From Telmatospirillum siberiense (GTDB taxonomy: Bacteria; Pseudomonadota; Alphaproteobacteria; Rhodospirillales; Magnetospirillaceae): a stretch of DNA of 64,000 nt. The DNA is taken from assembly GCF_002845745.1 (NCBI RefSeq), contig NZ_PIUM01000007.1, positions 1,309 to 65,308 on the forward strand. The letters run 5' to 3'. The notes under the pieces are model-generated. The model saw only the letters and a program-made list of their open reading frames with translations, was not told where the DNA came from and made no database searches. This document shows positions 31,424 through 58,653 of the stretch, one piece after another (positions within the stretch are counted from its first letter, which is position 1; the number at the start of each line of letters is the position of its first letter). A program made the translations under genes and the position numbers.

Positions 31424-31467
31424 ATACTAGGCGCGCGATCGCCATCCCGTCTGTCAGCTACATGACA
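31424..31467 (-). promoter_or_regulatory. CooA-type operator and -10 box of the outer-membrane channel gene
   Basis: 31452-31467 reads TGTCAGCTACATGACA, a perfect TGTCA-N6-TGACA palindrome. On the minus strand it is followed after 22 bases by TAGTAT (31429-31424), a good -10 hexamer. The palindrome is therefore centred about 42 bases before the inferred start of transcription (near 31417), the class II activator position used by CRP, FNR and CooA. No convincing -35 box is present, as expected for an activator-dependent promoter. Confidence 0.72.
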
Positions 31468-31576
31468 ATTTATCAAACATCTCATTGCCGATCGTGCCGC
31501 CGGGCCGGCCCCGTCGTCGCGGGACATCCGGCGTCGCGGGGGGCTCGGGCTATTCCACCGGGCAACAATGCAAAAC

Positions 31577-31620
31577 TGTCCGGCATCTGACAGACAGCCC
31601 CCTCGGTCGGCCCTCATAAT
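31577..31620 (+). promoter_or_regulatory. CooA-type operator and -10 box of the moaA-mop operon
   Basis: 31577-31592 reads TGTCCGGCATCTGACA (TGTCC-N6-TGACA), followed after 22 bases by CATAAT at 31615-31620. The inferred transcript start is near 31627, placing the palindrome centre at about -42. The surrounding bases (ACTGTCC..ATCTGACAGACAGC) are nearly identical to those in front of cooM at 53479-53501, which argues for one regulator acting on both operons. Confidence 0.75.
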
Positions 31621-31740
31621 GCCGCTCAACCACAACGAAACGACCCGAACGGGCGGCTTTTAAAGACCCGAAGGGAACCCGGAACGGAACGGCCGCGCAA
31701 GGCGCGCCGGGTTTTGGGAACAGGGAAGGCGCCAACAGTC

Positions 31741-32736
31741 ATGATCGACTCCTGCGGCCGCGACATCACCTATCTCCGCCTGTCGGTCACCGACCGCTGC
31801 AATCTCCGCTGCGTCTATTGCATGGGGGATGATCCCCTGCCGCTCGCCCATTCCGAGGTCCTCAGGATCGAGGAACTCGTGCGCATCTCCCGCTGTTTCA
31901 TTCGCCTTGGCATTCGCAAGCTGCGCATCACCGGCGGAGAGCCCCTGGTCCGCAAGGGCATCATGGAGCTGTTCGACCAGTTGGGCGAAGAGGTCGCTCT
32001 CGGCCGTTTGGCCGAACTGACGATGACCACCAACGGCTTGCGGCTGGCCGAGGTTGCCGGGCGGCTGCGGGCCGCGGGCCTGCGCCGGGTGAATGTGTCG
32101 CTCGATACGCTCGATCCCGGCCTGTTTCGCCGCATCACGCGGTGGGGAGAGGTCGAAAGGGTCATCGACGGAATCGCCGCGGCCAAGGACGCCGGTCTGC
32201 AGGTCAAGATAAACGTCGTGCTGCAGAAGGGCGTCAACGAGGATGGACTGGACGCCCTGATCGCCTGGGCGGGTGCCCAGGGCCATGACATGACCCTGAT
32301 CGAGGCGATGCCGCTGGGGTCCCTGGCGGGCTTGCGCGCCGACCAGTTTCTGTCGGTCGAGAAGATGCGCAAGGACCTGGCGAGCCGCTGGACGCTTCTT
32401 CCCTGCGACCACCGCACAGATGGGCCGGCCAGTTTCTACCGCGTGGCGGAGACCGGAGGCCGGCTCGGCTTCATCGCGGCGATCAGCCAATGCTTCTGCG
32501 CCGCGTGCAACCGGGTGCGGATGACCTGCACGGGGGGCGTGTCCTGGTGTCTGGGCCAGGAAAGCAGTCTGGAATTACGGGATTTGATCCGATCCACCGA
32601 AGACGACGGGCCGATGGAGCGCGCGCTGCTGGCGGGTGTCGCCGCGAAACCCGCCGGCCATCGTTTCGCCGTCGGGATCGCCGGGGCGGCCTGTTCCGAC
32701 GGTCAGCGGAGCCGGATGAACCGGATGGGAGGGTGA
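31741..32736 (+). CDS. moaA: GTP 3',8-cyclase MoaA (molybdenum cofactor biosynthesis)
   Basis: This 331-residue radical SAM enzyme makes the first pterin intermediate of molybdenum cofactor from GTP. The N-terminal cluster motif is CNLRCVYC (CxxxCxxC). Also present are LRITGGEPLVRKGI, the SAM-binding TMTTNGLRL, and the C-terminal second [4Fe-4S] motif CAACNRVRMTC...C (C-x2-C-x13-C), which binds GTP. The protein ends in the conserved Gly-Gly (RMGG). ATG 31741 has GGGAAGG upstream; a TTG at 31714 would add nine residues. As the first gene of the molybdoenzyme operon it is probably a dedicated copy that boosts cofactor supply when the operon is induced. Confidence 0.9.
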   Translation: MIDSCGRDITYLRLSVTDRCNLRCVYCMGDDPLPLAHSEVLRIEELVRISRCFIRLGIRKLRITGGEPLVRKGIMELFDQLGEEVALGRLAELTMTTNGLRLAEVAGRLRAAGLRRVNVSLDTLDPGLFRRITRWGEVERVIDGIAAAKDAGLQVKINVVLQKGVNEDGLDALIAWAGAQGHDMTLIEAMPLGSLAGLRADQFLSVEKMRKDLASRWTLLPCDHRTDGPASFYRVAETGGRLGFIAAISQCFCAACNRVRMTCTGGVSWCLGQESSLELRDLIRSTEDDGPMERALLAGVAAKPAGHRFAVGIAGAACSDGQRSRMNRMGG

Positions 32737-32799
32737 CCCCCCACACGGATCCGGGACCTTTTGGGAATGTGAATACTTAGTCGCAGAAATGGAGCCACC

Positions 32800-33639
32800 A
32801 TGGATATTTACGAGGAATTGGTGCGACTGCGTCGCGAGGGGCGAAGAGGCGCCCTGGCCACGATCATCACCACCACCGGCTCGATACCGTCCTACTCCTC
32901 GGCCAAGATGCTGGTCCGCGATGACGGTTCTGTCGTCGGCACCATCGGCGGCGGCTGCGTCGAGGCGGAGGTCATCACCGGCGCCCGCAAGGTCATGGAG
33001 CAGGAAAAGCCCGAGACCTTCGAATTCAACCTCAACAAGAATCCCAGCTTCGACACCGGATTGGTGTGCGGCGGCTCATTGGAGGTTTTCGTGGAACCCA
33101 TCCTGGGCGATCCGACACTTTATATTTTCGGCGCCGGACATGTGGGCCTGAACGTCTACAAGGTCGCGCAGATGGCCGGCTTCCAGGTGGTGGTCATCGA
33201 CGACCGGGTTTCCTTCGCCAATCGGGAGCGCTTCCCCGAGGCGCAGGAGGTCTATGCGGACGACTGGGACAAGGTCATGGCCTCGTTGAACCCACCGGAC
33301 ACCTCTTTCATTCTCGTCGTCACCCGCGGCCATCGCGAGGACATGCATGTCCTGCAATGGGCCGTCGACACCAAGGCGCGCTACATCGGCATGATCGGGT
33401 CGAAGCGCAAGGTCATTACGGTGTGCAAGGAACTGCAGAAGCTGGGCGTGCCCGCTTCCAAGTTCGATCGCGTGCATGCGCCCGTCGGCTTCGACATCGG
33501 CGCCACAACCCCTGAGGAAATCTCCGTCGCCGTGGCGGCGGAGATGATTGCCGTCCGGCGCCACAGCCAATCGGCTCTGCCTTATATGCGCCGCCTCCAG
33601 CTCGTATCGGACGAAGTGCAGGAAAAATCCGCGAGTTGA
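32800..33639 (+). CDS. xdhC: XdhC-family molybdenum cofactor sulfuration/insertion chaperone
   Basis: This 279-residue protein has an N-terminal XdhC/CoxI domain with GALATIITTTGSIPSYSSAK and GTIGGGCVEAEV, and a C-terminal Rossmann domain with LYIFGAGHVGLNVYKVAQMA and FILVVTRGHREDMHVL. XdhC proteins bind the molybdenum cofactor, protect it during exchange of an oxo for a sulfido ligand, and hand it to xanthine dehydrogenase-family enzymes. The sulfur usually comes from a cysteine desulfurase, and one is encoded at the end of this operon. The gene lies 63 bases after moaA and 49 bases before the hydroxylase it should serve. Confidence 0.93.
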   Translation: MDIYEELVRLRREGRRGALATIITTTGSIPSYSSAKMLVRDDGSVVGTIGGGCVEAEVITGARKVMEQEKPETFEFNLNKNPSFDTGLVCGGSLEVFVEPILGDPTLYIFGAGHVGLNVYKVAQMAGFQVVVIDDRVSFANRERFPEAQEVYADDWDKVMASLNPPDTSFILVVTRGHREDMHVLQWAVDTKARYIGMIGSKRKVITVCKELQKLGVPASKFDRVHAPVGFDIGATTPEEISVAVAAEMIAVRRHSQSALPYMRRLQLVSDEVQEKSAS

Positions 33640-33688
33640 CGCCCACAGGAAACGCCACTCGCTTCTAAACTTATGGGAGAGACGAAAA

Positions 33689-36433
33689 ATGCAACGGATA
33701 AGACTGAATATTAATGGGGTCGACAGATTTATCGTCACCGATCCCAAGGCCATGCTTTCGGACGTGTTGCGCAATCAATTGTTGCTGACCGGATGCAAGG
33801 TCTGTTGCGACACCGGACAATGCGGTACCTGCACGGTCATCGTCGACGACAAACCGATAAAGTCTTGCCTGACCCCTGTCAGCAAGATCGGCCCGCTGGC
33901 CAAGATCACCACCATCGAGGGATTGGGTTCGGGCGACGATCTTCATCCCCTGCAGGTCGCCTGGATGGCCCATGGCTCCGCCCAATGCGGCGTCTGCACC
34001 CCCGGTTTCCTGATGTCGGCCAAGGTGCTTCTGGACAAGAACCCCAGTCCGACCCGGGACGAGGTTCGCACCTGGTTCCATCGCAACCGCAATCTTTGCC
34101 GCTGCACCGGCTATAAGCCCCTCACCGATGCCGTGATGGACGCCGCCGCCGTTTTGCGCGGCGAGAAGAAGAAAGAGGATCTGCTGGTTCAGCCGGCGGA
34201 AAACGGCAGTATCCTGGGATCGACCTATCATCGTCCCTCGGCCAGGGCCAAGGTCACCGGCACCTGGGATTTCGGCGCCGACGTCGCCTTGCACATGCCG
34301 CCGGATACGCTGCGGCTGGCGCTGGTCCAGGCCAAGGTGTCGCACGCCAACATCAAGGGCATCGACACCTCCGAGGCCGAGAAGATGCCGGGCGTCGTCA
34401 AGATCGTGACCTGGCATGATATCAAGGGCAAGAACGCCATCACCGGTCTGATCACCTTCCCCACCAACAAGGGCGACGGATGGGATCGTCCGATCCTCTG
34501 CAAGGACAAGATCTTCCAGTTCGGCGACGCCATCGCCATCGTCTGCGCCGACACCGAAGCCCATGCCCGCGCCGCCGCGGACAAGGTCAAGGTCGATCTC
34601 GAAGTGCTGCCGGCCTATATGAGCGGCTTCGCCGCCCTGGCCCCGGACGCCATGGAAATTCACCCCGGCGTGCCGAACGCCTATTACGAGCAGGGCGTCG
34701 TCAAGGGCGAGGACACCAAGCCCCTGATGGAAAAGGCCGCCTACACGGTCGAACTTGAAACCTATTGCAGCCGCCAGCCGCACTTGCATCTCGAGCCGGA
34801 TTGCGGCGAAGCCTTCCTGGACGACCAGGGCGTGCTCACCATCTTGTCGAAGAGCATCGGCCTGCATCTGCATCACGCGATGATTTGTCCGGGTCTCGGC
34901 ATCGAGCCCGAAAAACTTCGCATCATTCAGAACGGTACCGGCGGCACCTTCGGCTATAAGTTCAGCCCGACCATGGAAGCCATCCTCGGCGCCGCCTGCC
35001 TGGCCACCGGCCGTCCCGTGTCGCTGATCTACGACCAGTATCAGAACATCACCTATACCGGCAAACGCTCGCCGGCCAACATCACGGCCAAGTGGGGCGC
35101 CGACAAGGACGGCAAGCTGATCGCGCTCGAATACGACTGGTGGCTCGATCACGGTCCCTATTCCGAATTCGGCGATCTGGTCACCCTGCGCCAGGCCCAA
35201 TTCATGGGCGCCGGTTACGATATCCATAATATCCGGGCCAAGGGCTTCACCGTCGCCACCAACCATGCCTGGGGCTCGGCGTTCCGCGGATATGGCTCGC
35301 CGCAGGCGTTCCTGAACGGTGAAATCGCCATGGACATGCTTGCCGAGAAGATGGGGATCGATCCGCTCGAGCTGCGTATGCGCAACATCTACCGGCCGGG
35401 CGCCACCACGCCGACCGGGCAAGTGCCGGAAGTGTTCTGCCTTGAGGGCCTGCTCGACATGATCAAGCCCTACTGGGAGGAGGCCAAGGTCCGTTGCAAG
35501 AAACTGTCGACCGACAAGATCAAGCGGGGCGTCGGCCTGTCGCTCGGCATCTATGGCTGCGGCCTGGATGGTCCGGACAGTTCCAATGCCGCGGTCGAAC
35601 TGACGCCCACCGGCGTGACCGTGATGAATGCGTGGCAGGACCACGGTCAGGGATCCGAACTCTCCACGCTGACCATCGCCAATGAGATGCTGCTGCCGCT
35701 CAAGCTCAAGATCGAACAGATCGACCTGGTGATGAACGACACCAATCTGCCGAACAGCGGCCCGTCCGGCGGTAGCCGGTCGAACGTGTTCGTCGGCAAC
35801 GCCATCAAGGTCTCCTGCGAGATGCTGCTCAACGCCATGCGCAAGCCGGACGGCAGTTATCGTACCTACAAGGAGATGGTCGCCGAAAACATTCCGCTGC
35901 GCTACGACGGGAAATGGGTGGCCGCGGCCTGCACCGACTGCACGCCCGATACCGCGCAGGGCTCGCCATTCCCGATCTATATGTATGAAGTCTTCATGCC
36001 GGAGGTGGAAGTCGATGTCGAAACCGGCAAGACGACCTGCGTCAAGTTCGTCACCTCGGTCGATGTCGGGACGCTCATCAACAAGGCCACCGTCGACGGC
36101 CAGATCTACGGTGGTATCGCCCAGGGCATCGGCCTGGCGTTGACCGAGGACTTCGACGATCTCGAAAAGCACACCTCGCTCAGGGCCTGCGGCATTCCCT
36201 ATCCGCTGGATATCCCCGACGATTTCGACATCCTCTATCAGGAAACGCCCCGTCCGCTCGGTCCCTTCGGGGCCGCCGGTTGTGGCGAGGCGCCGCTGAC
36301 CGCCGTTCATCCGGCGATCCTCAACGCGATCTACAACGCCGTCGGCGTCCGCATCTTCAAGATTCCGGCCCTGCCGGAAGCCGTGAAGGCGGCCATGGAC
36401 GCCAAGAACGCCAAGGAGTCTGTCCACGCCTAG
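33689..36433 (+). CDS. mop: Single-chain molybdenum hydroxylase, aldehyde oxidoreductase (Mop) type
   Basis: This 914-residue protein is essentially the same length and numbering as Desulfovibrio gigas aldehyde oxidoreductase (907 residues). [2Fe-2S] ligands fall at Cys40, 45, 48 and 60 and at Cys100, 103, 137 and 139. The molybdenum domain follows, with GTGGTFGYKFSPTME, AWGSAFRGYGSPQ, GPSGGSRSN and the catalytic Glu of GAAGCGEAPLTAVHP (about residue 867; Glu869 in D. gigas). There is no FAD domain, so electrons must leave through the iron-sulfur centres to a ferredoxin or flavodoxin-like partner. The family uses molybdopterin cytosine dinucleotide and oxidises aldehydes; the true substrate is unknown. 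It is not a CoxL-type CO dehydrogenase. ATG 33689 follows GGGAGA. Confidence 0.93.
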   Translation: MQRIRLNINGVDRFIVTDPKAMLSDVLRNQLLLTGCKVCCDTGQCGTCTVIVDDKPIKSCLTPVSKIGPLAKITTIEGLGSGDDLHPLQVAWMAHGSAQCGVCTPGFLMSAKVLLDKNPSPTRDEVRTWFHRNRNLCRCTGYKPLTDAVMDAAAVLRGEKKKEDLLVQPAENGSILGSTYHRPSARAKVTGTWDFGADVALHMPPDTLRLALVQAKVSHANIKGIDTSEAEKMPGVVKIVTWHDIKGKNAITGLITFPTNKGDGWDRPILCKDKIFQFGDAIAIVCADTEAHARAAADKVKVDLEVLPAYMSGFAALAPDAMEIHPGVPNAYYEQGVVKGEDTKPLMEKAAYTVELETYCSRQPHLHLEPDCGEAFLDDQGVLTILSKSIGLHLHHAMICPGLGIEPEKLRIIQNGTGGTFGYKFSPTMEAILGAACLATGRPVSLIYDQYQNITYTGKRSPANITAKWGADKDGKLIALEYDWWLDHGPYSEFGDLVTLRQAQFMGAGYDIHNIRAKGFTVATNHAWGSAFRGYGSPQAFLNGEIAMDMLAEKMGIDPLELRMRNIYRPGATTPTGQVPEVFCLEGLLDMIKPYWEEAKVRCKKLSTDKIKRGVGLSLGIYGCGLDGPDSSNAAVELTPTGVTVMNAWQDHGQGSELSTLTIANEMLLPLKLKIEQIDLVMNDTNLPNSGPSGGSRSNVFVGNAIKVSCEMLLNAMRKPDGSYRTYKEMVAENIPLRYDGKWVAAACTDCTPDTAQGSPFPIYMYEVFMPEVEVDVETGKTTCVKFVTSVDVGTLINKATVDGQIYGGIAQGIGLALTEDFDDLEKHTSLRACGIPYPLDIPDDFDILYQETPRPLGPFGAAGCGEAPLTAVHPAILNAIYNAVGVRIFKIPALPEAVKAAMDAKNAKESVHA

Positions 36434-36445
36434 GGGGGCGGAAGA

Positions 36446-36479: not shown

Positions 36480-36529
36480 CCTTCATTCCACGCGAAAACG
36501 ATCAATGAGGCCTGGGAGCGCGGATTTCC

Positions 36530-38872
36530 ATGGAGCGGCTGAGAGTTCAGGAACTGGAAGCGCAATGCATCGAGGAGGCTCCTCCGGCTTGCACGGCGAC
36601 CTGTCCGATCCATCTCGATGCCCGCGGCATGATGGAGTTCGTGCGCAAGGGCGATATCCCCGGCGGATTTGGCATCGTCGCCCGGTTTTTGCCGTTTCCC
36701 TCCATCATCAGCAGAATTTGCGATCATCCTTGCGAATTGCTTTGCAAGCGGGCGGAAGCCGGCGAAGCGGTTCGCATCAACGACATCGAGCGGGCCTGCG
36801 TCGACCATGGATACAAGGCGAGCGCCCTGCCCCGGGCGCAGCGGGCGCAACGGAAAAAGCATGTGGCCGTCGTCGGGGCGGGCCTTTCCGGCCTGACCGC
36901 CGCCGTCGACCTGGCCGTCAAGGGCCACGAGGTGACGGTCTTCGAGGCCAAGTCCAGGACGTTCGACCGCATCCGCGAGTGGAGGCGTCCGCCACTGCCG
37001 GCGAGCCTGATCGAAACCGATCTCGTCCAGTTGGGGACGCTCGGCATCACCGTTCAAACCAATACCGTGGTCGGCGCCGGCGGGATGAGTTTCCGCTCGC
37101 TGGCCGATGGCTTCGATGCCGCCTATCTGGGGTTGGGCTCACGCTCCGTCGCCGATCTCGCCCTCGATCTGGAACTGGACGCGGAAGGCCGTATCGTCAT
37201 CGATCCCCTGACCTTCGCGACCAGCCATCCGCAGATTTTCGCCGGCGGCTGCCACCGCTACGGTCCCGCCGTCTATTCGCCGATCACCTCGGTCCATGAC
37301 GGTCGCTATGCGGCGATGTCCATCGACCGGATGTTTCAAGGCGCCTCCCTGAGCGCCAACCGGGAGACGCAAGGCCCCTATCCGACGCGCCTTTATACCA
37401 AGACCAGCGATTACGCGCCGCTGCCGGCGGTCGTTCCCGCCGACCTGCACGCCGGTTTCACCGCCGCCGAGGCGGTTGCGGAAGCGACGCGATGCTTCCC
37501 CTGCCATTGTCTGGAATGCGTGAAGGTCTGCGACTTCCTGGCCCATCACGGTTCCTATCCGAAACGCTATATCCGCGAGATCTACAACAACGACTGCATC
37601 GTCATGGGCGCCCACAAGGCCAACCGGATGGCGAACACCTGCAGCCTGTGCGGCCTGTGTTCGGCGGTCTGTCCGGAACATCTGCCGATGGGCGACTTCT
37701 GTCTCGAGGCCCGCCAAAGCATGGTGCTGCGGGGCAAGATGCAGCCGTCGTTCCATGACTTCGCCTTGCGCGACATGGCGTTCAGCACCGGCGACGCCTT
37801 CGCGCTGGCCCGTCATCAACCCGGCACGACGTCGAGCGCCGCCCTGTTTTTCCCCGGTTGCCAGTTGAGTGCCTCGTCTTCCGATCACGTCGCCGCCGCC
37901 TATGCCTATCTGCGTCAACGTCTTCCCGGTGGTGTCGGGCTCATGCTGGGCTGTTGCGGCGCTCCGGCGCATTGGGGCGGCGAGGAGGGGCTGTTCCGCT
38001 CCGCCCTGCAATCGCTCGAAGACGAGTGGGAGCGGATGGGGCGCCCGAAGATCATTACCGCCTGTTCGTCCTGCTACCGCGTGTTCAAGGATCATCGGCC
38101 CGATTTTCCGGTCACCTCGCTGTGGACGCTGTTCGAAGAGATCGGCCTGCCGCCGGCGCGCAAGGCCCCGCCGTCGGGTCCGCTCGCCATCCATGATCCC
38201 TGTACGACCCGCGACGAGGCGGATGTGCAGCGGAGCGTCCGCGCACTTCTCGACCGAATCGGGGTGGCGTCGCAGGATATCGGCGATCCGGGGCTGACCT
38301 CCTGCTGCGGTTTCGGCGGGTTGATGTCCTTCGTCAATCCGGACGTGGCCGACAAGACCATCGATCGCCGGGCGCGGGAGAGCGACGCCGATTACGTCAC
38401 CTATTGCGCCATGTGCCGCGACAATTTCGCCAGGCGGGGCAAGCGGGCCCTGCATGTCCTGGACCTCGTGTTCGGTACGGAGGACGATCCCGCCGCCAGG
38501 GAGGATCCCGGTTTTTCCAGCCGCCAGGAAAACCGTGCCCGGCTGAAGGCCCGTCTGCTGCGGGAGGTCTGGGGGGAGATCCCGGCCGACGAAGGGGAAG
38601 GGCCTTCGCCCCTCCCCAGGCTGTTCATCGATCCCGGGGTGCGGGCGTTGGCCGAGAAACGCCTGATCCTGGAGAGCGACATGCGCGGGGTCATTCGTCA
38701 TGCCGAGACCTCGGGGGTGAAGATCCTGAACCGGGAGACCGGACATTTCGTCGCCAGCCATCAGCCGGCGGCGGTGACCTACTGGGTCGAATACTCGCCC
38801 CGGGGCGAGGGCTTCGCCGTTCATAACGTCTATAGCCATCGCATGTCGCTGGGGAAGGAGCCATCGTCATGA
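36530..38872 (+). CDS. Fe-S flavoprotein: GltD-like N-terminus, dicluster ferredoxin and CCG (HdrB-like) domains
   Basis: This is a 780-residue multidomain redox protein. The N-terminus (about 1-95) has GltD-type iron-sulfur ligands in CTATCPIHLDARG and CDHPCELLC. A pyridine-nucleotide-disulfide oxidoreductase fold (about 103-270) starts HVAVVGAGLSGLTAAVDLA. Two ferredoxin-like clusters (about 322-395) use CHCLECVKVC and CSLCGLCSAVC. Two HdrB-like CCG segments (about 440-640) contain FFPGCQLS, LGCCGAPAHWGG and SCCGFGGLMSF. It matches proteins named pyridine nucleotide-disulfide oxidoreductase/dicluster-binding protein in Desulfovibrio molybdoenzyme clusters. It is the best candidate to accept electrons from the hydroxylase, possibly with bifurcation-like CCG chemistry. 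Its stop codon overlaps the next start (ATGA). Confidence 0.85.
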   Translation: MERLRVQELEAQCIEEAPPACTATCPIHLDARGMMEFVRKGDIPGGFGIVARFLPFPSIISRICDHPCELLCKRAEAGEAVRINDIERACVDHGYKASALPRAQRAQRKKHVAVVGAGLSGLTAAVDLAVKGHEVTVFEAKSRTFDRIREWRRPPLPASLIETDLVQLGTLGITVQTNTVVGAGGMSFRSLADGFDAAYLGLGSRSVADLALDLELDAEGRIVIDPLTFATSHPQIFAGGCHRYGPAVYSPITSVHDGRYAAMSIDRMFQGASLSANRETQGPYPTRLYTKTSDYAPLPAVVPADLHAGFTAAEAVAEATRCFPCHCLECVKVCDFLAHHGSYPKRYIREIYNNDCIVMGAHKANRMANTCSLCGLCSAVCPEHLPMGDFCLEARQSMVLRGKMQPSFHDFALRDMAFSTGDAFALARHQPGTTSSAALFFPGCQLSASSSDHVAAAYAYLRQRLPGGVGLMLGCCGAPAHWGGEEGLFRSALQSLEDEWERMGRPKIITACSSCYRVFKDHRPDFPVTSLWTLFEEIGLPPARKAPPSGPLAIHDPCTTRDEADVQRSVRALLDRIGVASQDIGDPGLTSCCGFGGLMSFVNPDVADKTIDRRARESDADYVTYCAMCRDNFARRGKRALHVLDLVFGTEDDPAAREDPGFSSRQENRARLKARLLREVWGEIPADEGEGPSPLPRLFIDPGVRALAEKRLILESDMRGVIRHAETSGVKILNRETGHFVASHQPAAVTYWVEYSPRGEGFAVHNVYSHRMSLGKEPSS

Positions 38873-39075
38873 GCGGCGAGAAAGCCCCTCCGCCCCGGCT
38901 GATCTGCGGGAAGTGCGACCAGGAATTGTCGATGGGCAAGGTCACCCTGGCCTACATGGGCAATTCGTTCGAAGTCGAGTTGTTGCGTTGCCCGCAGTGC
39001 CATCTCGTGTTCGTTCCCGAGGAACTGGCGACGGGAAAGATGCAGCAGGTCGAATTGGCGCTGGAGGAAAAATGA
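38869..39075 (+). CDS. Small CxxC redox or zinc protein (DVU_1557-like family)
   Basis: This is a 68-residue protein with two metal-binding pairs, LICGKCDQEL and LRCPQCHLVF, and a charged C-terminal helix. It fits the small DVU_1557-family redox proteins found in the same order in sulfate reducers. The four cysteines could bind zinc or a rubredoxin-like iron. ATG at 38869 overlaps the preceding stop, and its own stop overlaps the next ATG, so it is translated in a coupled chain. Confidence 0.82.
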   Translation: MSGEKAPPPRLICGKCDQELSMGKVTLAYMGNSFEVELLRCPQCHLVFVPEELATGKMQQVELALEEK

Positions 39076-39827: not shown

Positions 39828-40275
39828 CGAGGAATTCCGTATCTTCGAATTGTCGCTGCAGGGGTTCGGATGCAGCCAGGTTCTCGTTCTGATGGCGCTC
39901 GAGGCGCAGGGCAGGGACGACCCCCTCCTCGTCCGCGCCATGTCCGGGCTCCTGGGAGGCATGGGCTGTGGCAGGACTTGCGGCACCCTGGCGGGGGCCT
40001 GTTGCGTGCTGGGCATGTATGCCGGCCGGGGCGGTGTCGAGGAACGCGAAGACGACGCTCTGCCGATCATGCAGGCCGAACTGGTCGATTGGTTCGAGGC
40101 CGAATACGGCGTTCGGTACGGCGGCATCAATTGCGACGACATCATCGAGAAGGATCCGGGACTGCGCCTTTCCAGATGCCCGCCCCTGATCGTGGAAACT
40201 TTCAGGAAGGTGATGGAAATCCTGGCGCGGCACGACTATTCGCCCGATGGCCGGGCGGGCGGGGGGCGGGAATGA
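39820..40275 (+). CDS. C-GCAxxG-C-C family redox protein (DVU_1555-like)
   Basis: This is a 151-residue protein with QGFGCSQVLVLMAL near the start, GGMGCGRTCGTLAGACCVLG in the middle and a last cysteine in LSRCPPLI, the defining pattern of C-GCAxxG-C-C proteins. These are thought to carry redox-active or cluster-binding cysteines and often sit next to selenium, molybdenum or iron-sulfur enzymes. The ATG at 39820 is chosen because it has GGGAGG upstream and overlaps the methyltransferase by only eight bases. The longer frame from 39682 would overlap by about 145 bases. Its stop overlaps the next start. Confidence 0.85.
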   Translation: MADEEFRIFELSLQGFGCSQVLVLMALEAQGRDDPLLVRAMSGLLGGMGCGRTCGTLAGACCVLGMYAGRGGVEEREDDALPIMQAELVDWFEAEYGVRYGGINCDDIIEKDPGLRLSRCPPLIVETFRKVMEILARHDYSPDGRAGGGRE

Positions 40276-44775: not shown

Positions 44776-44810
44776 GCAGCCCTTGCCGAGATCATTCGAG
44801 GGAGCGAGGA

Positions 44811-45980: not shown

Positions 45981-46367
45981 TACAAAAAAGTCCTGTTGGT
46001 TTCGGTGGTGTGAAATGCAAATTTCGCATTGAAGTGGACGCCCGCCCGGGCGGTTGTTCTTGAAACAAGCGCCAAGTCTATCCACAGAAACCGCAAGATT
46101 GGTTCCCGGCATGCCGCCTTTCAGCAATGGCGCCGGCGGTCTTCGTTGCCTCTTTCAGGGTAAGGAATTCCTCTGGTTCATGCCGGATGCCTGTCGTTCT
46201 CTTAAAGACTATGCATGGGCTGTGCAATATATTGGTTATGTATATTAAATATATAGCGATGGCGAAAGCAGGTGCTGATGTTTGGATTTGGTGGACATCT
46301 TGCTTTTGGTTGATTAATGAGCTTTAATGATGAGGCCATTACTATTCATTATGGGCTGTGCGCCGCG
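45981..46367. other. Intergenic region before the CooA-like gene
   Basis: This region is GC-rich at first, with a CCGCCCGGGCGG palindrome at 46042-46053 shortly after the desulfurase gene. It becomes AT-rich around 46220-46260 (TATTGGTTATGTATATTAAA), where the promoter of the regulator gene is likely. No TGTCA-N6-TGACA site was found here, so the regulator does not obviously control itself. Short open frames do not resemble proteins. Confidence 0.5.
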
Positions 46368-47084
46368 ATGTCTCAGTGCTTCAGCATTTTCGATATTCTT
46401 GAGAATCCCGAGCATGACAGCTTTTTCCAAAGCTTCGCGGTCCGTAAAATCGCCGAGCACGGCATCGTCTGCGATGCCGGAACGACGGAAAACAGTATCT
46501 TCATCGTTCTGTCCGGCGAATTGCGCGTCTATCTCTCGTGCGAGGGGCGGGAATTCACGCTTTTCACCCTTGAGCCGGAAGCCGTGTTCACGACGCACGC
46601 CAAAATGTCGGTGGTCGCCACGAAGCCGTCGGAGATATTGGTCACCAGCCTCAGGAATTTCGAAAACGCGTTGAAGACCATCCCGGGCCTGTCCGTCGCC
46701 ATCATCGGCAGCATGGGGCGCGGCCTTGGAAGCGCCGTCCGGATCATCGAGGGCCTGGTCTTCCGCGACGTCAAACAGCGTCTGATCTATTTTCTTCTCG
46801 ATCTGGCCAATGAGCGCGGATGCAAGGTCCATGGGGGCGTCTCCATCACCATGGACTACAAGATCGAAGAAATCGCCACCCTGATCGGTTCGAGCCGGCA
46901 ATCCACATCCTTGATTCTCAATGAACTTATCAAGAGCGGCTACATCTTGAGAGTCAGCCGCAAACAACTGGTCATTCGCGATCTGCGTCGCCTGAAAAGG
47001 TTGACGGAAAGCGAAGAGCTGTCGGATTGGGAGGAGGAGGTTTGCCCGATCCCGCTCGTCGGCGCGGCGGGGCGGCGGAACTGA
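46368..47084 (+). CDS. cooA: CooA-like CRP/FNR-family haem-type transcription activator
   Basis: From ATG 46368 the 238-residue protein aligns without gaps to R. rubrum CooA (recalled sequence) from residue 1 through the haem region. FSIFDILENPEHDSFF matches FNIANVLLSPDGETFF, and GELRVYLSCEGREFTLF matches GRLRVYLVGEEREISLF. His77, the haem ligand exchanged by CO, is kept (VFTTHAK). Cys75 is Thr and the N-terminal Pro2 is Ser. The DNA-binding helix EEIATLIGSSRQSTSLILNE keeps the SSRQ-T/S-TS core that reads TGTCA half sites. An upstream in-frame ATG at 46317 would add 17 residues and break the N-terminal match. It should activate the moaA-mop, cooM and outer-membrane channel promoters. Whether it binds haem or CO is untested. 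Confidence 0.85.
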   Translation: MSQCFSIFDILENPEHDSFFQSFAVRKIAEHGIVCDAGTTENSIFIVLSGELRVYLSCEGREFTLFTLEPEAVFTTHAKMSVVATKPSEILVTSLRNFENALKTIPGLSVAIIGSMGRGLGSAVRIIEGLVFRDVKQRLIYFLLDLANERGCKVHGGVSITMDYKIEEIATLIGSSRQSTSLILNELIKSGYILRVSRKQLVIRDLRRLKRLTESEELSDWEEEVCPIPLVGAAGRRN

Positions 47085-47317: not shown

Positions 47318-47328
47318 ATAGTCCTCTT

Positions 47329-48036
47329 CTATTTTGCCGCCCCCGGAATGCTCATCTTCCACAGCCGGTGGCAGTCGGCGCAATAGACGACCGATGCCGC
47401 ATGGGCGTGATGGCAGGTGGTGCAGGCGATGTCGTCACCGAGATGCGAGGAATGGGGATTGCGTTTGGGGAACTCCACATTGCGGGTCTTCCCGGCCAGC
47501 TTCTCGATCGGTCCGTGACAGGCTAGGCACCGATCGTTTTCCACCGTCGAATCGGACGTGGGGAGCCCCTTGCCATGGCAACCGGCGCAATCGACCGATG
47601 CCTTGGCATGCAGATGGTCGGTGAAATCGGAGTTGGCCCAGGAAGCGAATTCCTCCTTCAGTAATTTGAGATCGGCGGGCTTCGGCGCACCCCAGGAAAA
47701 CGGCTGCCCGATCAGGCCGAAGCTTTTTCCCGGGACGATGCGGTGGCAGGCCGCGCAGTCGCCTTTGACGGCCGGCGGCACATGGGTGAGATGCAGCCGG
47801 GTCGAGAAACCGTTCGTCTCCGCCTCGCCGGATTGTCCGGTGGCGTGGCAGGGAGTGCAGGAGGCCATTCCATTGCCGCGGACCGCTTTGTGTTTTTGCG
47901 GCAATGTCTTGGAGAGGTCGGGATGGCAGGCTGTACAGGCATCGCCCGGCGGCGCCGCCCGCGCGGGTCCGGCGAGCGGGGCGCCAAGAAGAAGGCACGC
48001 CGCCGCGATGGCGAGGAAATGCGGTTTCAGCATCAT
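47329..48036 (-). CDS. Periplasmic heptahaem c-type cytochrome
   Basis: This 235-residue protein has a signal peptide (about 1-27, ending ARA) and seven CxxCH haem motifs in order: CTACH, CTPCH, CAACH, CAGCH, CLACH, CTTCH and CADCH. The last four, with HSSHLGDDIACTTCHHAH, look like the tetrahaem cytochrome c3 module that feeds fumarate-reductase-type flavocytochromes. The first three add an extra haem segment. It is the electron donor to the flavoprotein encoded just upstream in the same minus-strand operon (61-base gap). Confidence 0.92.
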   Translation of the reverse strand: MMLKPHFLAIAAACLLLGAPLAGPARAAPPGDACTACHPDLSKTLPQKHKAVRGNGMASCTPCHATGQSGEAETNGFSTRLHLTHVPPAVKGDCAACHRIVPGKSFGLIGQPFSWGAPKPADLKLLKEEFASWANSDFTDHLHAKASVDCAGCHGKGLPTSDSTVENDRCLACHGPIEKLAGKTRNVEFPKRNPHSSHLGDDIACTTCHHAHAASVVYCADCHRLWKMSIPGAAK

Positions 48037-48097
48037 CGCTCCGATCAGAAAGGGACGAGGGTCCGTCCCGGCGGACGAACCCTCGTCGACGTCGTCC

Positions 48098-49633
48098 TTA
48101 CGCCTTCAGGGCGTTGCGGCCGGCAATGCGGCCGAACACGATGCAGGTCGGAATGGCGTTGGATCCCAGGCGATTGGAGCCGTGGATGCCTCCGGTAACT
48201 TCGCCGGCGGCAAACAGTTTGGGGATCGGGCTGCCGAAGACGTCGATCACCTGACCGGAGGCGTTGATCCGCAGGCCGCCCATGCAGAAGTGGACGGCCG
48301 GCCATTGCGGAATGGCGTAGAACGGGCCTTTCTCCAGGGTGATCATCGCAGGGGTGATCGGCTTGTTGAATTCCGGATCCTTCCCGTCCTTGTGATACTG
48401 GATGTATTTATTGACCGTATCGACAAGGGCGTCGGTCGGAATGTTGCATTTCCCGGCCAACTCGGTGATGGACTCGGCCTTGATGAAACGGCCGCGCTTC
48501 AAACCCTCCGCGACCTCTTCCGGGTCGCCGCCCATGGGCAGAATCATGGCTTCGTTGAAGATGGACCAGGTCGGCTTGGCGTCCTTGCCGAGATTGATCT
48601 GGGCATAGGCGACCACGTCGCGGCGCTCCAATTCGTTGACGAAGCGTTTGCCTTGCTTGGTTACGTAAAGAATGCCGTAGCCCGGTCCGTTGAACGGATA
48701 GACGGCTTGCGCGTCGAGCAGTCCGGTTTCCGGTTCGGCGTAAGGGTAGAGCTGGATGAAGTTCATCTGCAGCGTGTCGGCCCCGACCGCCTGGGCGAAT
48801 TTATGGATTTCACCGGTCGCCCCCTTGTGGTTGGTGCAATTGTATTCCGCTGTCAGGCGGGGATTGTGGGCCGAACGCATTTCGACATTCTGACTGAAGC
48901 CGCCGCTGGCCAGAATCACCGCCTTGTTGGCCCGCAGGTTGAGAACCTTCTTGCCGCGCTTGATTTCGACACCGAGGACCGCCGATTTCGGGTCCGCGTC
49001 TGCCCGCCAGATCCAGGTGACTTCCGAATTCAAGGTCGGCTTGATGCCGGCCTTGGCGGCGATCTTGCGCAAGGCTTCCGTATATTCGCGGCCGACACCG
49101 CTTTTCGCCGCATGGGTCCTGTAGGCGGTATGGCCGCCGGCCCTCGTCACCGTGGGGCGCAGTTCGGCCCCGCCATCCTCGACCACCCAGTTGAGGGCAT
49201 CGGCAGCGCCGTCGGCGACCTCCTTGGCCAATTCGGGAATGCTGTAATAGTCGCCCCCCTTCAGGATGTCCTGCCAATGCTGGGCCGGGCTGTCGGCGCC
49301 CAGATTGAGCTTTTCACGGTAATGCCATTTGTCGTCCCAGGCGGCGAAGACGCCGCCATTGATGATCGAGTTGCCGCCGTATGTCGGCATTTTTTCCAGA
49401 AGGGTGGTTTTCGCACCGCCGCCGGCCGCCTCGGCGGCGGCGGCCAGGCCGGCGAATCCCGAGCCGATGACGATGACGTCCCAGGTCTCGTCCCATTGGG
49501 TGGGCAGCTTGCGGACCAGGGCTTGCGCCGTGCCGGGAACAGCCATGTTGAGCGCCGTGCCGCCACTGAGGGCGACGGCGCCCAGGGCGACGGATTTCAA
49601 GACGGAACGACGGCTTAGATCTTTATTGGACAT
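48098..49633 (-). CDS. Tat-exported flavocytochrome-c-type reductase (fumarate reductase-like flavoprotein)
   Basis: From ATG 49633 (GGAGGAG box) the product is 511 residues. A twin-arginine signal (DLSRRSVLKSVALGA) precedes the FAD-binding VIVIGSGFAGLAAAAEAAGG and EKMPTYGGNSIINGGVFAAW. The active-site regions are GKRFVNELERRDVVAYAQIN, VHFCMGGLRIN and GGIHGSNRLGSNAI. Arg residues equivalent to the Shewanella Fcc3 proton-donor and substrate-clamp arginines are present. The paired histidine of fumarate reductases (VHHTMGG) is replaced by Phe (VHFCMGG), so the substrate may be another enoate (methacrylate, urocanate and the like) rather than fumarate. The flavoprotein lacks its own haem domain; the heptahaem cytochrome downstream supplies electrons. 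Confidence 0.88.
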   Translation of the reverse strand: MSNKDLSRRSVLKSVALGAVALSGGTALNMAVPGTAQALVRKLPTQWDETWDVIVIGSGFAGLAAAAEAAGGGAKTTLLEKMPTYGGNSIINGGVFAAWDDKWHYREKLNLGADSPAQHWQDILKGGDYYSIPELAKEVADGAADALNWVVEDGGAELRPTVTRAGGHTAYRTHAAKSGVGREYTEALRKIAAKAGIKPTLNSEVTWIWRADADPKSAVLGVEIKRGKKVLNLRANKAVILASGGFSQNVEMRSAHNPRLTAEYNCTNHKGATGEIHKFAQAVGADTLQMNFIQLYPYAEPETGLLDAQAVYPFNGPGYGILYVTKQGKRFVNELERRDVVAYAQINLGKDAKPTWSIFNEAMILPMGGDPEEVAEGLKRGRFIKAESITELAGKCNIPTDALVDTVNKYIQYHKDGKDPEFNKPITPAMITLEKGPFYAIPQWPAVHFCMGGLRINASGQVIDVFGSPIPKLFAAGEVTGGIHGSNRLGSNAIPTCIVFGRIAGRNALKA

Positions 49634-49832
49634 TGTTGTCTCCTCCACAGTCGTGCGGGTCATGTCCCGCGTCGTGCCTGTCGAGCAAGGAGCGCTTCAT
49701 AGGATCTTCGGATTTTTGGGCGAACCCGGAGCTGACGCGTCCTGGGGCGCGTCCGTTTCCGTCTTCACGGTGACGGATGCGGAAGGGATCGGGCCACCCC
49801 GAGGCGGCTTGCTCGAACAGATGAGTGGCCAT
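49623..49832 (-). CDS. Small protein coupled to the flavoprotein gene
   Basis: A 69-residue frame starts at ATG 49832 with an excellent GAGGAGG box six bases upstream. Its stop overlaps the first codons of the flavoprotein by 11 bases, which suggests translational coupling. The sequence is charged and rich in His, Asp and Arg near the end (RHDAGHDPHDCGG) and has no signal peptide. No family was recognised; it could be a leader peptide or a small assembly factor. Confidence 0.5.
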   Translation of the reverse strand: MATHLFEQAASGWPDPFRIRHREDGNGRAPGRVSSGFAQKSEDPMKRSLLDRHDAGHDPHDCGGDNNVQ

Positions 49833-49887
49833 TTCAGGCCTCCTCAGAAAGTCCTCCCCAACCCAAATCAACAATGCGGGTGGCTCA

Positions 49888-50114
49888 ATGGAAAGTCAAG
49901 ATATATCCCACAAAAATAGTATGGAATTAGGCATTGTGCCGACTTTCCCATATGATGAGAAAGTACTTTGTATTCATTATATTTTGCGAGAGTTGGTGGT
50001 AAACGGTGAATGGGGAAAAGTCACTTATCCGAGCGATCCTATCTGCTACTTTTCGGCGGAAATCATTCTGATAAATATACTAAAAGGAGAATTTCGCCGG
50101 TGGCTATGGAGGCC
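49888..50114 (+). pseudogene. AT-rich possible gene remnant
   Basis: An ATG at 49888 opens a frame of AT-rich, protein-like sequence (IVPTFPYDEKVLCIHYILRE, KVTYPSDPICYFSAEIILIN) that then runs without a stop into antisense of the ABC ATPase gene. Base composition drops sharply compared with both neighbours, and an AAAAGGAGAA box near 50086 is not followed by a plausible gene. It may be a truncated gene or merely an AT-rich promoter region. The protein-like look is suggestive only. Confidence 0.3.
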
Positions 50115-50963
50115 TCAGGTGGGGCGCGCCATCAACCGTTCCAGCAGGGACAGCATCTCCTGTGGCCGGCGAGGGCAGGGAGCGTCGGGCGCGAGCAGGC
50201 CCAGCGATTTCGCCTTCAGGCCCATCTCCAGCAAAAAGGGCGCCTGGAGCCGGGCCCCGGCCAGCAGGGTGCCATCCGACAGGATGTCGACCGTGGGGCC
50301 TTGAGCCAGCATGCGTCCGCCGTCGAACAGCGCGACGTCATCGGCGAAGCCATAGGCCAGATCGACGTCGTGGGTGCTGAAGACCAGGGTGGTTCCGGCG
50401 GCGGACAATGCGGCGAGAACCGTCAGCAATCCCTTGGCGCCCGCATGGTCGAGGCCGGCCGTCGGTTCGTCGAGCAGCAGGATTTCCGGCGCCATCGCCA
50501 CGGCGCCGGCGATGGCGACCCGCTTTTTCTGGCCGAAGGACAGCATATGGGTCGGCCGTTCGGCCAGTCCGGTGAGCCCCAGAGCGGCCAGAGCCTCGCC
50601 GACACGAACGCGGGTGGCGGCCTCGTCAAGACCGAGATTGAGCGGCCCGAAGGAAACGTCCTCGGCCACGGAGGCGGCGAACAATTGATCGTCGGCCTCC
50701 TGCAGGACCAGGCCGACCCTCCGCCGCCACGCCGTCAGTTGGGTGCGATCATAGCCGGCCGGCCGGCCATCGAGGAGGATTTGGCCGGATGCCGGGCGCA
50801 GACTGCCGTTCAAATGCAGCAGGAGAGTGGTCTTGCCGGCTCCGTTCGGGCCCAGAATGGCGAGCCGGCGTCCCCGTTTGACGGCGAGATCCAGCCCCGA
50901 CAGGGCCGGGACGCCGCCCGGATAAGCGTAGACGAGGCTGCGGGCTTCCAAAAGCGGTGTCAT
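50115..50963 (-). CDS. cbiO: Cobalt ECF transporter ATPase CbiO
   Basis: This 282-residue ABC ATPase has Walker A LGPNGAGKTTLLLHLNG, the Q-loop LVLQEADDQLFA, signature MLSFGQKKRVAIAGA and Walker B ILLLDEPTAGLD, followed by the switch His in FSTHDVD. The FGQKKRVAIAG form of the signature is typical of the CbiO/NikO group. It overlaps the CbiQ stop by four bases and is the last gene of the four-gene minus-strand operon. It hydrolyses ATP to drive metal uptake through CbiMNQ. Confidence 0.93.
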   Translation of the reverse strand: MTPLLEARSLVYAYPGGVPALSGLDLAVKRGRRLAILGPNGAGKTTLLLHLNGSLRPASGQILLDGRPAGYDRTQLTAWRRRVGLVLQEADDQLFAASVAEDVSFGPLNLGLDEAATRVRVGEALAALGLTGLAERPTHMLSFGQKKRVAIAGAVAMAPEILLLDEPTAGLDHAGAKGLLTVLAALSAAGTTLVFSTHDVDLAYGFADDVALFDGGRMLAQGPTVDILSDGTLLAGARLQAPFLLEMGLKAKSLGLLAPDAPCPRRPQEMLSLLERLMARPT

Positions 50964-51691
50964 TGCACAAGCAATCCTGTGATCAGCATCGCCGTCTCCA
51001 GGATCAGGATACCGGCGAGGGTGGGAATGGACGACGGCGTGCGGCGGGACAGGACGCGCATCTCTCCGTTCCAGCCGCGGGCGGCGAGTCCGACTTCAAG
51101 GCGTCGGGCCCGGTCGAGCGCGCGGGGGAGCAGATTGGCGATGAGCACGCCCAGGCAGCGCAGCCTCCGGCGCAGGCCGATATGGCCGAGACGGGCCGCC
51201 TGGGCGGCGTTCATCGTCGCCGCCGTGTCGGCCAGCAGGAACACGAAGCGATAGGTCAGAAGGGCCATCTCGACGATTTCAGCGGGCAGCCCGAGACGGC
51301 GCAACCCGGTCATCAGATCGCTGGCCGGCGTGGTGAGCGCCAGGAACAGCAGACAAGCGAGCCCCGCCTCCGAACGGGCGGCCAGTCCGGCCGCGGCGGA
51401 GAGCCCCCCCGGGGCGAGGCCGATGCCATGGCCGTCGACCTGCAGCAGCACCGACAGCGTCCCGGCGAGCAGGAACCCCGTCGGACCGGCGACGCAGGCG
51501 AGCCATACCCTGGCCGGAACGCGGGCTCCGACCAGGGTTGCCAACACCATCACCACCGCCACCAGGACCGCTGTCGGCCAGGGCGGCAGACTGATATCGA
51601 GCAGAAGCATGCCGAAGGTCAGCAATGCTTTTTCGCTCAAGGGTCGGAAACGCCAGCGGTTGAGATGGGCGATCCTATCGACGGGTGACAT
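50960..51691 (-). CDS. cbiQ: Cobalt ECF transporter membrane subunit CbiQ
   Basis: This 243-residue membrane protein has about five hydrophobic segments and the transmembrane-coupling motifs near its end (AAQAARLGHIGLRRRLRCLG and RALDRARRLEVGLAARGW), including the AARG-type signature that contacts the ATPase. The start at 51691 overlaps CbiN by 17 bases. Divergent N-terminal region but correct length and context. Confidence 0.9.
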   Translation of the reverse strand: MSPVDRIAHLNRWRFRPLSEKALLTFGMLLLDISLPPWPTAVLVAVVMVLATLVGARVPARVWLACVAGPTGFLLAGTLSVLLQVDGHGIGLAPGGLSAAAGLAARSEAGLACLLFLALTTPASDLMTGLRRLGLPAEIVEMALLTYRFVFLLADTAATMNAAQAARLGHIGLRRRLRCLGVLIANLLPRALDRARRLEVGLAARGWNGEMRVLSRRTPSSIPTLAGILILETAMLITGLLVQ

Positions 51692-51974
51692 CGTCCCGCC
51701 GCGACCCGTGGCGACGGCCGATCAGGTAGCCGATGACCCCCGTCCCCAAGCTGGCCTGCAAGGCGAACAGCATGCTTTCGATCTCGTCGCTGGGCGGTTT
51801 CCACAGTGGTTGGAACCATGGCTGATAGCCAGGATGGGATTCGGTAATGGCGTCGGTCCCGATGTCGTCGGATCCCTTGAAGTCCCCCCCCAAACCGGGA
51901 ACCACCAGGGGGGCCGCGATGATGAGGACGGCGGCGGCGGAGAGCCACACCGAGCGATGCTGGGCGATCATCAT
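51675..51974 (-). CDS. cbiN: Cobalt ECF transporter small subunit CbiN
   Basis: This 99-residue protein has two transmembrane helices (about 9-28 and 68-86) separated by a periplasmic loop containing [13 protein letters not shown] and [20 protein letters not shown], the family signature. It starts inside the last codon of CbiM and assists metal loading of CbiM. Confidence 0.92.
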
Positions 51975-52639
51975 TCGATCTCTCCCGACAGCATGCGGAT
52001 TTCATCGGCTTGTCCGGCCCGCCCGGACAGGGCGTTCATGACGACGACGGTCAGCAATCCCTCGGCGATGGCCAGCGGAATCTGCGTCACGGCATAGATG
52101 CCGCCGAATTTCAGAACGGCTCCGGCAAATCCGGACGAGGGATCGGGATAGGCCAGCGCCAATTGCACCGATGTGGTCGCATAGGTCGCGAGATCGCCCA
52201 GGGCGGCGGCCAAGAAGACGGAAAAGGCGATGGAGGCGCCCAGGCGGCTGGCCAATCGCCATACGGCATAGCTGACCCAGGGCCCCATGATCGCCATCGA
52301 GAATACATTGGCGCCGAGTGTGGTAAGCCCGCCATGCGCCAGCAAAAGCGCCTGAAACAGCAGGACGATGGTTCCCAGGACGGCCATCACCGAAGGGCCG
52401 AAAACCACGGCGCCGAGGCCGGTGCCGGTCGGATGGGAACAGGACCCGGTGACGCTCGGCATTTTGAGGGCCGAAAGGACGAATGTGAAAGCGCCGGCCG
52501 CGGCCAGCGTCATTTTGGCTTGCGGGCGTGCCGCCACGATACGTTTCAGCCTGACCGCCCCGGCCACGACAAAGGGGGCCGAAAGGGCAAACCACCCCGC
52601 CGCATGTGCCGCGGGTAGATAACCTTCCATAATATGCAT
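51971..52639 (-). CDS. cbiM: Cobalt ECF transporter substrate-binding subunit CbiM
   Basis: From ATG 52639, with GAGGTGG upstream, the 222-residue membrane protein begins MHIMEGYLP. Met1 and His2 at the mature N-terminus form the metal site in this family, which fixes the start. Conserved [18 protein letters not shown] provides further metal-binding histidine, and six to seven helices follow. Cobalt rather than nickel is favoured because the operon lies behind a cobalamin riboswitch. The longer frame to 52717 would run into the leader. Confidence 0.94.
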
Positions 52640-52721
52640 CGGATCCACCTCGAGATCTCGGACGCGGTGCGACCATCTCCTTCCCGAGAACACCCCGCCC
52701 GGAATGGCATCACACACGCAA

Positions 52722-52918
52722 CGCTGATGGCAGGTCTCCTGACTCGCGGGTCGCGGGTTCCAGCCTAGCCTTCCCAGCCTGTATGCGGCCCCCGGTGGAC
52801 GTCGGGGCCACGGCCAGTGGCGATCTTGGGTGCCGGAACCTACCCGCTCACAGTTGCGGGGGCAGCCACGGAATCAGCTTTCTTTTCGAAAGCCTCACCG
52901 TGTTCCCTTTTCACTCCG
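52722..52918 (-). ncRNA. Cobalamin riboswitch in front of cbiMNQO
   Basis: Read on the minus strand, the region shows the conserved cobalamin-riboswitch blocks in order: GGAGTGAAAAGGGAACACGG, the GCCCCCGCAACTGTGAGCGG core (B12 box region), GCCACTGG, CTGGGAAGGC and finally GACCCGCGAGTCAGGAGACC followed by TGCCATCAGCG. The regulated cbiM starts about 80 bases downstream. Adenosylcobalamin binding is expected to shut down cobalt import. Confidence 0.93.
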
Positions 52919-53177
52919 AACCGCCAAGAGGGCGGCACGAAGAACCATCGGGGGCAAGTCTATTCACCACGGGGGGCGAGGGTCAAGCGGTTCGCTGCCA
53001 CGGCAACGAATTCAGGTTAACAACCGGTTGGCGCCGCCAATTTCATTTGCCGGCCCACTCCCAGGAGTCGTCATCCCCGTGCCGAACAGTCGCGTGTCGA
53101 GTTCGGCCATGACGCCGGCGTTGATAAAGTCGAAACCCGAGTTCGGAGCCCCGGAGGCTGGGAACGCTTCGATCCCA

Positions 53178-53341
53178 TCTGTGCTCACCTGCGTTCATCG
53201 GCGCTGATCTGCGTTTCCTTATAATCGATTCCGGCGGGTTATTCTGGGGCCAATCGAGCTGCTCCCGAAGACCCGGCCCGGGACCGGGGGCTTGTCAAAA
53301 GGAGCACAGATAAACACCGATGAACTCAGATAGGGGCAGAT
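53178..53341. repeat. Inverted pair of 10-bp tandem repeats (ATCTGCGTTC type)
   Basis: 53178-53217 consists of four consecutive 10-mers: ATCTGTGCTC, ACCTGCGTTC, ATCGGCGCTG, ATCTGCGTTT. 53302-53341, read on the opposite strand, has four more: ATCTGCCCCT, ATCTGAGTTC, ATCGGTGTTT, ATCTGTGCTC. The two arrays face each other across 84 bases and could fold into a long hairpin. The rest of the gap from 52919 to the cooM promoter holds no gene that I can see. Confidence 0.75.
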
Positions 53342-53479
53342 GTGGACTGCTCCCATGCCTGAGACAAGAAACTATGGACAAGGTTGGACTTGAACCGTGC
53401 GGTTCGCTGCCGCCCGAAGGATTGCATCTTCTTCGGCTGGCGAACGACACTTTTTCCTCCTCCGGACAATCGGCAGAAC

Positions 53480-53522
53480 TGTCCGCGATCTGACAGACAG
53501 CGACTCCGCCTGCTTCCATAAT
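53480..53522 (+). promoter_or_regulatory. CooA-type operator and -10 box of the cooM operon
   Basis: 53480-53495 reads TGTCCGCGATCTGACA (TGTCC-N6-TGACA), followed after 21 bases by CATAAT at 53517-53522. The inferred transcript start is near 53529 and the palindrome centre is at about -41.5, the class II activator position. No -35 hexamer is evident. The flanking bases match those of the moaA operator closely. Confidence 0.78.
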
Positions 53523-58652: not shown

Positions 58653-58653
58653 A

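Follow-up and report, generated by a model that had tools for sequence, protein, structure and literature searches.

The three promoters described here lie in a 64,000-nucleotide stretch of the Telmatospirillum siberiense genome (contig NZ_PIUM01000007.1, positions 1,309 to 65,308; hereafter the window). They precede a gene for an outer-membrane channel-like protein (the porin), an operon encoding the molybdopterin-dependent aldehyde oxidoreductase Mop with its accessory proteins, and a cooMKLXUH hydrogenase operon. That one operator is common to all three is well supported. Sequence comparison further makes it fairly probable that these genes form a CooA-family regulon, in which the cooMKLXUH hydrogenase, linked elsewhere to carbon monoxide (CO), is paired with Mop in place of CO dehydrogenase (CODH). 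The initial annotation had proposed a regulon of this composition, which is supported here and is kept in two other Telmatospirillum genomes. The CO side of that proposal is incomplete or lacks support, as no CODH of the CooS type was found over cut-off in this genome and the regulator falls in a separate CooA clade with changed residues in the haem-ligand region.

A TGTC-N8-GACA palindrome, as in CooA operators, stands before the target operons. The three sites were confirmed in letters and coordinates as first annotated, TGTCAGCTACATGACA at 31452-31467 (minus strand), TGTCCGGCATCTGACA at 31577-31592 and TGTCCGCGATCTGACA at 53480-53495, and re-measuring gave the same gaps to the -10-like hexamers, 22 bases (TAGTAT, minus strand), 22 bases (CATAAT) and 21 bases (CATAAT). 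This distance fits a class II CRP-type promoter, with the centre predicted near -41.5 from the hexamers rather than from transcript starts, and the geometry, already suggested for these promoters, is kept in relatives. The half-site pair had been given as TGTCA-N6-TGACA, which is correct at both ends of the porin site, whereas the other two sites read TGTCC...TGACA. All three 16-mers run on into GAC, an extension that is not palindromic. In the following lines, as throughout, relatives are denoted by G numbers.

31449 to 31467, minus strand: CooA-type operator with GAC extension, porin promoter, read from the sequence; same place in G051 and G054
31424 to 31429, minus strand: -10-like hexamer TAGTAT, porin promoter, gap 22
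31577 to 31595, plus strand: moaA-mop promoter, CooA-type operator with GAC extension; kept in position in G051 and G054, and found with one mismatch before moaA in G199 and G200
31615 to 31620, plus strand: -10-like hexamer CATAAT, moaA promoter, gap 22
53480 to 53498, plus strand: CooA-type operator with GAC extension, cooM promoter; also before cooM in G051, G054, G052, G029, G007 and G211, one-mismatch form in G199 and G200
53517 to 53522, plus strand: -10-like hexamer CATAAT, cooM promoter, gap 21

Genome-wide tests were made by pattern search in the genome of the window (G000; 6.2 Mb, 81 contigs). The exact core TGTCN8GACA occurs at 48 sites, four of them within the window (Poisson P 0.0017); the fourth, at 54192, lies inside cooM without the extension and was taken as coincidence. 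The exact extended form TGTCN6CTGACAGAC is rare, with five occurrences (the three named sites, C80:20135 and C14:32040) against an expectation of 0.16 under a mononucleotide model and 0.08 under a dinucleotide model trained on the window. When the 48 core sites were scored with a matrix built solely from seven sites in relatives, the named sites ranked first, second and fifth.

Conservation in orthologous regions, a check suggested at the outset, was found in two genomes beyond G000. In all three Telmatospirillum genomes with Mop (G000, G051 and G054) sites are present before porin, moaA and cooM (9/9), with a pairwise identity of 13-19 of 19 bases (G200 rows included), while the ungapped flanks have diverged, with identities of 10-24 of 60 and 19-32 of 77. 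The pattern TGTCN7YGACAGAC has 13 sites in five relatives, compared with one in the reversed control, and the porin, moaA and cooM promoters make up three of the four sites in G051 and three of the five in G054. The extended motif also precedes cooM in genomes with CooS (G052, G029 and G007), an exact extended site precedes cooM in G211, and an exact site precedes hypA in G199 and G200. Furthermore, YANNNT follows the site at a distance of 21 or 22 bases in 24 of 26 cases, including all nine Telmatospirillum promoters, compared with 3.8% at other gap pairs; the two misses are at G051 cooS and on contig C382 of G052. The P values for this pattern are too small, because both the pattern and the 26 sites were chosen after inspection and orthologous sites are not independent. 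Two one-mismatch sites, G200 24626 and G199 26897, were not assigned and stand outside the set of 26.

The operon downstream of the moaA promoter was assigned as follows.

31714 to 32736 (possible start 31741), plus strand: moaA
32800 to 33639, plus strand: xdhC
33689 to 36433, plus strand: mop, molybdopterin-dependent aldehyde oxidoreductase (NF045668, 1535.1 bits, cut-off 1100)
36530 to 38872, plus strand: flavin, Fe-S and CCG protein (NF045663), candidate electron carrier
38913 to 39827, plus strand: DVU_1556 family methyltransferase
39870 to 42848, plus strand: DVU_1551 NTP transferase fused to a TrsS radical SAM protein
42683 to 44182 (start unsure), plus strand: DVU_1553 family AMP-dependent ligase
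44179 to 44775, plus strand: histidine phosphatase, slightly below the cut-off of the best model
44652 to 45980 (start unsure), plus strand: NifS-like cysteine desulfurase, slightly below the NifS cut-off

By family model and motifs the mop product is assigned as a Mop aldehyde oxidoreductase, with aldehyde oxidation as its predicted activity. Its best PDB matches are 1dgj and 1sij, and it carries the two [2Fe-2S] motifs and the catalytic Glu (CDTGQCGTC, CGVCTPG, CRCTGY and GCGEAPL). Its active-site loop, AFRGYGSPQ, differs from the CoxL motif, and on this ground the reading of Mop as a Mo-Cu CO dehydrogenase was dropped.

The hydrogenase operon starts 6.8 kb beyond the gene of the CooA homologue and comprises cooMKLXUH, hypA and hypB.

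53903 to 57700, plus strand: cooM-like antiporter-type membrane subunit
57684 to 60159, plus strand: cooK, cooL, cooX and cooU homologues
60108 to 61238, plus strand: cooH, NiFe hydrogenase large subunit, with RICSLC and DPCISC
61195 to 62451, plus strand: hypA and hypB

Gene order and the presence of both Ni-binding cysteine motifs in CooH place the enzyme with the Coo-type hydrogenases of group 4, and given these motifs it should be a true NiFe hydrogenase. The T. siberiense genome paper gives [NiFe]-hydrogenases of groups 1c, 1d and 2b, without mention of group 4 (PMC5786683). In a tree of CooH the Mop label requires at least two changes, with nine of 15 inner branches open; the hydrogenase thus appears to have had both Mop and CooS as partners. 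A plasmid origin was considered and rejected: no Mop was found at E 1e-100 in plasmid records, and the 20 plasmid CooH records (E 1e-60) are all less than 60% identical. A second group-4-like large subunit, 38% identical to CooH, is encoded elsewhere in G000 (C26:36288-37370).

CooS was searched with TIGR01702 (cut-off 478). In G000 the best match reaches 24.1 bits, so that this is not the usual CO-oxidation regulon. Over the family, CooS exceeds the cut-off in six of 55 genomes; it does not in G054, nor in G199, G200 and G211 (0/3), which belong to another family. Mop is present in six of the 317 genomes of the order (G000, G051, G054, G199, G200 and G211), and among 385 genomes sampled from the class G000 was the one genome with Mop. 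These six genomes, all listed as at least 98% complete, all encode a cooMKLXUH-type hydrogenase and a CooA-type match, and five of them have no CooS over cut-off, in a search for the anaerobic enzyme.

In three of the six genomes enzyme and hydrogenase are joined in one gene run. G199 and G200 share the co-directional order moaA, cooMKLXUH, xdhC, mop, NF045663, methyltransferase, NTP transferase-TrsS, ligase, histidine phosphatase, hypA, hypB. In G211 the order is cooMKLXUH, xdhC, mop, NF045663, methyltransferase, NTP transferase-TrsS, ligase, regulator, hypB, hypA; neither moaA nor a histidine phosphatase was matched in the stretches read. At two other loci, L140 and L154, cooS is located behind cooMKLXUH and hypA, and mop thus takes a comparable place in the joined loci.

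46317 to 47084 (possible start 46368), plus strand: CooA homologue, between the Mop operon and the hydrogenase operon

The regulator that had been called CooA-like is a CooA homologue by its matches to the proteins of Rhodospirillum rubrum (1ft9, E 2.1e-48) and Carboxydothermus hydrogenoformans (2fmy, E 1.3e-39). Its recognition helix differs little from the one in R. rubrum CooA, and the top four PDB matches of a low-confidence structure model (predicted local distance difference test, pLDDT, 61.5) are CooA chains. The proximal haem ligand His77 is kept in this protein and in those of G051, G054, G199 and G200. The same five Mop-linked proteins all have Cys at the position of R. rubrum Arg4 (5/5), which could not be placed in the structure because the model is of low confidence, and in the N-terminal ligand region (Pro2 in R. 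rubrum) they read (M/V)SxCFS compared with MPPRF, their starts being unsure. The CooA of C. hydrogenoformans also differs at the N-terminal ligand. At 17 other CooA loci (L140-L156) Cys is found at position 4 in none and the haem His in all, and CooS is present within the stretch examined for 12 of them. Gly117, otherwise kept, is Cys in G199 and G200. In a tree that left out one incomplete row (L155) the five Mop-linked proteins form one clade with support 94/98, just below the starred threshold. The only CooA match of G211 at E<=1e-15 is a 652-residue protein encoded inside the Mop-Coo gene run (L160 2615-4573, minus strand), in which a GAF domain is joined to a CooA-like part where the haem His is replaced; its best NCBIfam match is DhaR, far below cut-off. 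Given the separate clade and the changed residues near the haem ligands, the divergence of the Mop-linked sensors suggests a changed signal, and CO may no longer be it.

Taken as a mechanism, the CooA homologue would bind TGTCN8GACAGAC in each of the three promoters (porin, moaA-mop, cooM), centred near -41.5, and act by class II activation, switching on uptake, aldehyde oxidation and H2 release together. Judging from protein families and gene linkage, the porin would let in an aldehyde or its precursor, which Mop would oxidise. Electrons could then pass to CooX/CooL/CooH through a ferredoxin or through the NF045663 protein, whose flavin, Fe-S and CCG domains make it a plausible carrier, and the hydrogenase would evolve H2 and pump ions. 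Judged by redox potentials, aldehyde oxidation yields more energy per H2 than CO oxidation. We regard as evenly balanced the fuller proposal of an aldehyde-driven H2-evolving system, in which CooA and CooMKLXUH would have been detached from CODH and rebuilt around Mop in two alphaproteobacterial families, with the sensor re-tuned away from CO, as the shared Cys4 clade and, in one lineage, loss of the haem His and gain of a GAF domain may indicate.

Several results weigh against the operators themselves or against a Mop-hydrogenase regulon of this kind. With one mismatch allowed, the core motif has 17 matches in the window compared with 19.2 expected from shuffles, for which reason the core alone was left out of the evidence and the extension, spacing and orthology were used instead. 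Allowing the extended motif up to two mismatches brings only a small excess in G000, with 144 matches (63+81) compared with 111 (56+55) in the reversed control. In G199 and G200 one core mismatch is present in each of the sites preceding moaA and cooM, no moaA site was found in G211 by the operator search, and the G211 regulator has diverged, lying outside the Mop-linked clade on a long branch. In G051 CooS is encoded on another contig from Mop, with a second CooA adjoining. The hydrogenase closest to that of G000 is from G052, a metagenome-assembled genome (MAG) with CooS and without Mop; its listed contamination of 8% calls for caution in reading the CooH tree. Lastly, the Fe-S centres of the Desulfovibrio gigas enzyme have potentials that are not very low, a disadvantage for H2 formation at high pressure.

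Much of the same evidence bears on other explanations. An ordinary CO-responsive regulon, in which the CooA homologue senses CO, Mop and the porin were recruited, and electrons come from a CO-oxidising enzyme that is unrecognised or lies in an assembly gap, is unlikely, in spite of the retention of His77, the same operator before cooM in CooS genomes and the presence of CooS in relatives with this hydrogenase. It is opposed by the CooS shortfall in five of six nearly complete Mop genomes, by the active-site loop of Mop and by the changes in the haem-ligand region. Co-regulation without electron coupling is a little less likely again. Here the hydrogenase would be fed by formate or ferredoxin and Mop would remove aldehydes under the same anaerobic signal. 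In its favour are the resemblance of CooH to the formate hydrogenlyase subunit HycE and the genes of pyruvate formate-lyase with its activase, and of acetate kinase, further along the same contig; the single gene run of Mop and hydrogenase in G199, G200 and G211 speaks against it.

That a different CRP/FNR protein occupies the sites, or that GAC is merely part of a -35 region beside a palindrome for another regulator, seems very improbable. The non-palindromic extension would allow for it, as would another protein in G000 that matches the CooA alignment less strongly (C30:34911, E 4.9e-24), but the motif also precedes cooM where the genome has an ordinary CooA, a CooA-type match accompanies Mop in every case, the recognition helix is close to that of R. 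rubrum CooA, and the motif fits the consensus TGTCGGCNNGCCGACA of the predicted Desulfovibrio CooA regulon, which was placed before coo operons (PMC545781, in the part of the text available).

CooA sites before coo operons are already known, and two Rubrivivax genomes are known to have cooA without CODH (PMC545781, PMC4257681; parts of both texts available). The R. rubrum regulon (cooFSCTJ and cooMKLXUH) shares with the present one CooA, the palindrome before cooM and cooMKLXUH, according to the available portions of PMC4652020 and PMC6557876; unlike R. rubrum, G000 has no CooS over cut-off and carries the operator on the Mop operon and the porin instead. The Desulfovibrio regulon has the same consensus, but its table, in the portion of PMC545781 at hand, lists only cooSC and the cooM operon and no Mop. 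In the accessible part of PMC4257681, Rubrivivax gelatinosus IL144 and R. benzoatilyticus likewise have a CooA homologue without anaerobic CODH, but no Coo hydrogenase is reported and cowN is present. On a Sulfurovum MAG contig a group 4 type hydrogenase is accompanied by a gene named cooA; this case differs in being a formate system, known from annotation only and with no operator described in the available part of PMC7117926. The Mop / DVU_1551-DVU_1556 set (NCBIfam NF045663-NF045668) is matched here, over cut-off, in enzyme and accessory families, and differs in that a common operator, and in three genomes also a single gene run, ties it to a Coo-type hydrogenase. A chain from aldehydes to H2 has been rebuilt in vitro from D. 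gigas aldehyde oxidoreductase, an enzyme of Mop's family, with flavodoxin, cytochrome c3 and hydrogenase (PMC10223205, as far as the available text goes). There electrons end in H2, as proposed here, through four soluble proteins, whereas the present case is a genetic linkage to a membrane hydrogenase. We found no description of a regulon of CooA with an aldehyde oxidoreductase and cooMKLXUH in the open-licence literature, where for CooA without CODH the best 15 of 54 matches were considered.

If the proposal is right, a peat bacterium and a few relatives, mostly without signs of the CO enzyme usually served by such genes, appear to use a CO-type switch for an aldehyde enzyme and an H2-making complex. 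CO-type energy-converting hydrogenases would then be exchangeable modules able to run on aldehydes, and the Mop / DVU_1551-1556 set would gain a regulator together with a likely sink for its electrons. The presence of a CooA homologue and a Coo hydrogenase would be no proof of CO metabolism, which would change how such genes are read in surveys.

The remaining genes around the operators are given below.

29093 to 30076, minus strand: DUF6976 protein, linked to the locus in five of six Mop genomes
30472 to 31386, minus strand: the porin, an outer-membrane channel-like protein (PF13557, Phenol_MetA_deg)

The DUF6976 gene keeps its place next to the locus in G051 and G054, whereas in G199 and G200 it is encoded divergently from moaA. 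It was not found in the two G211 stretches searched; its structure model (pLDDT 54.1) gave no fold match at E<=0.001. Between the operons (47329-52964, minus strand) are a CxxCH-rich cytochrome and a flavoprotein, both named by eye, and cobalt-transport-like genes preceded by a cobalamin riboswitch (52712-52964); relatives of the cobalt-transport-like genes lie near cooM in G054 and G052. A LytS-like kinase and a LytTR regulator come after hypB (L094 3926-6336, plus strand), the kinase being kept there in G051, G052 and G054.

Other genes also have the operator. On C26 a site that has the extension, followed by CATAGT at gap 21, ranked fourth by the matrix, and two neighbouring open reading frames scanned there gave no Pfam match. 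In G054 (C367) an operator stands just before or overlaps the start of L166 6316-7116 (minus strand), whose secreted-looking product presumably resembles GlcG/HbpS. An ArsM-like (arsenite-methyltransferase-like) gene on C14 of G000 (L015 347-1390, minus strand; protein below the model cut-off) has the extended operator, as has a gene of similar appearance by eye in G054 (C351; L136 336-1418, minus strand). On C80 of G000 an exact extended operator (site 5154, minus strand) lies about 190 bases before the start of a FIST-domain chemotaxis receptor gene (L048 2946-4967, minus strand), which may be a further member of the regulon.

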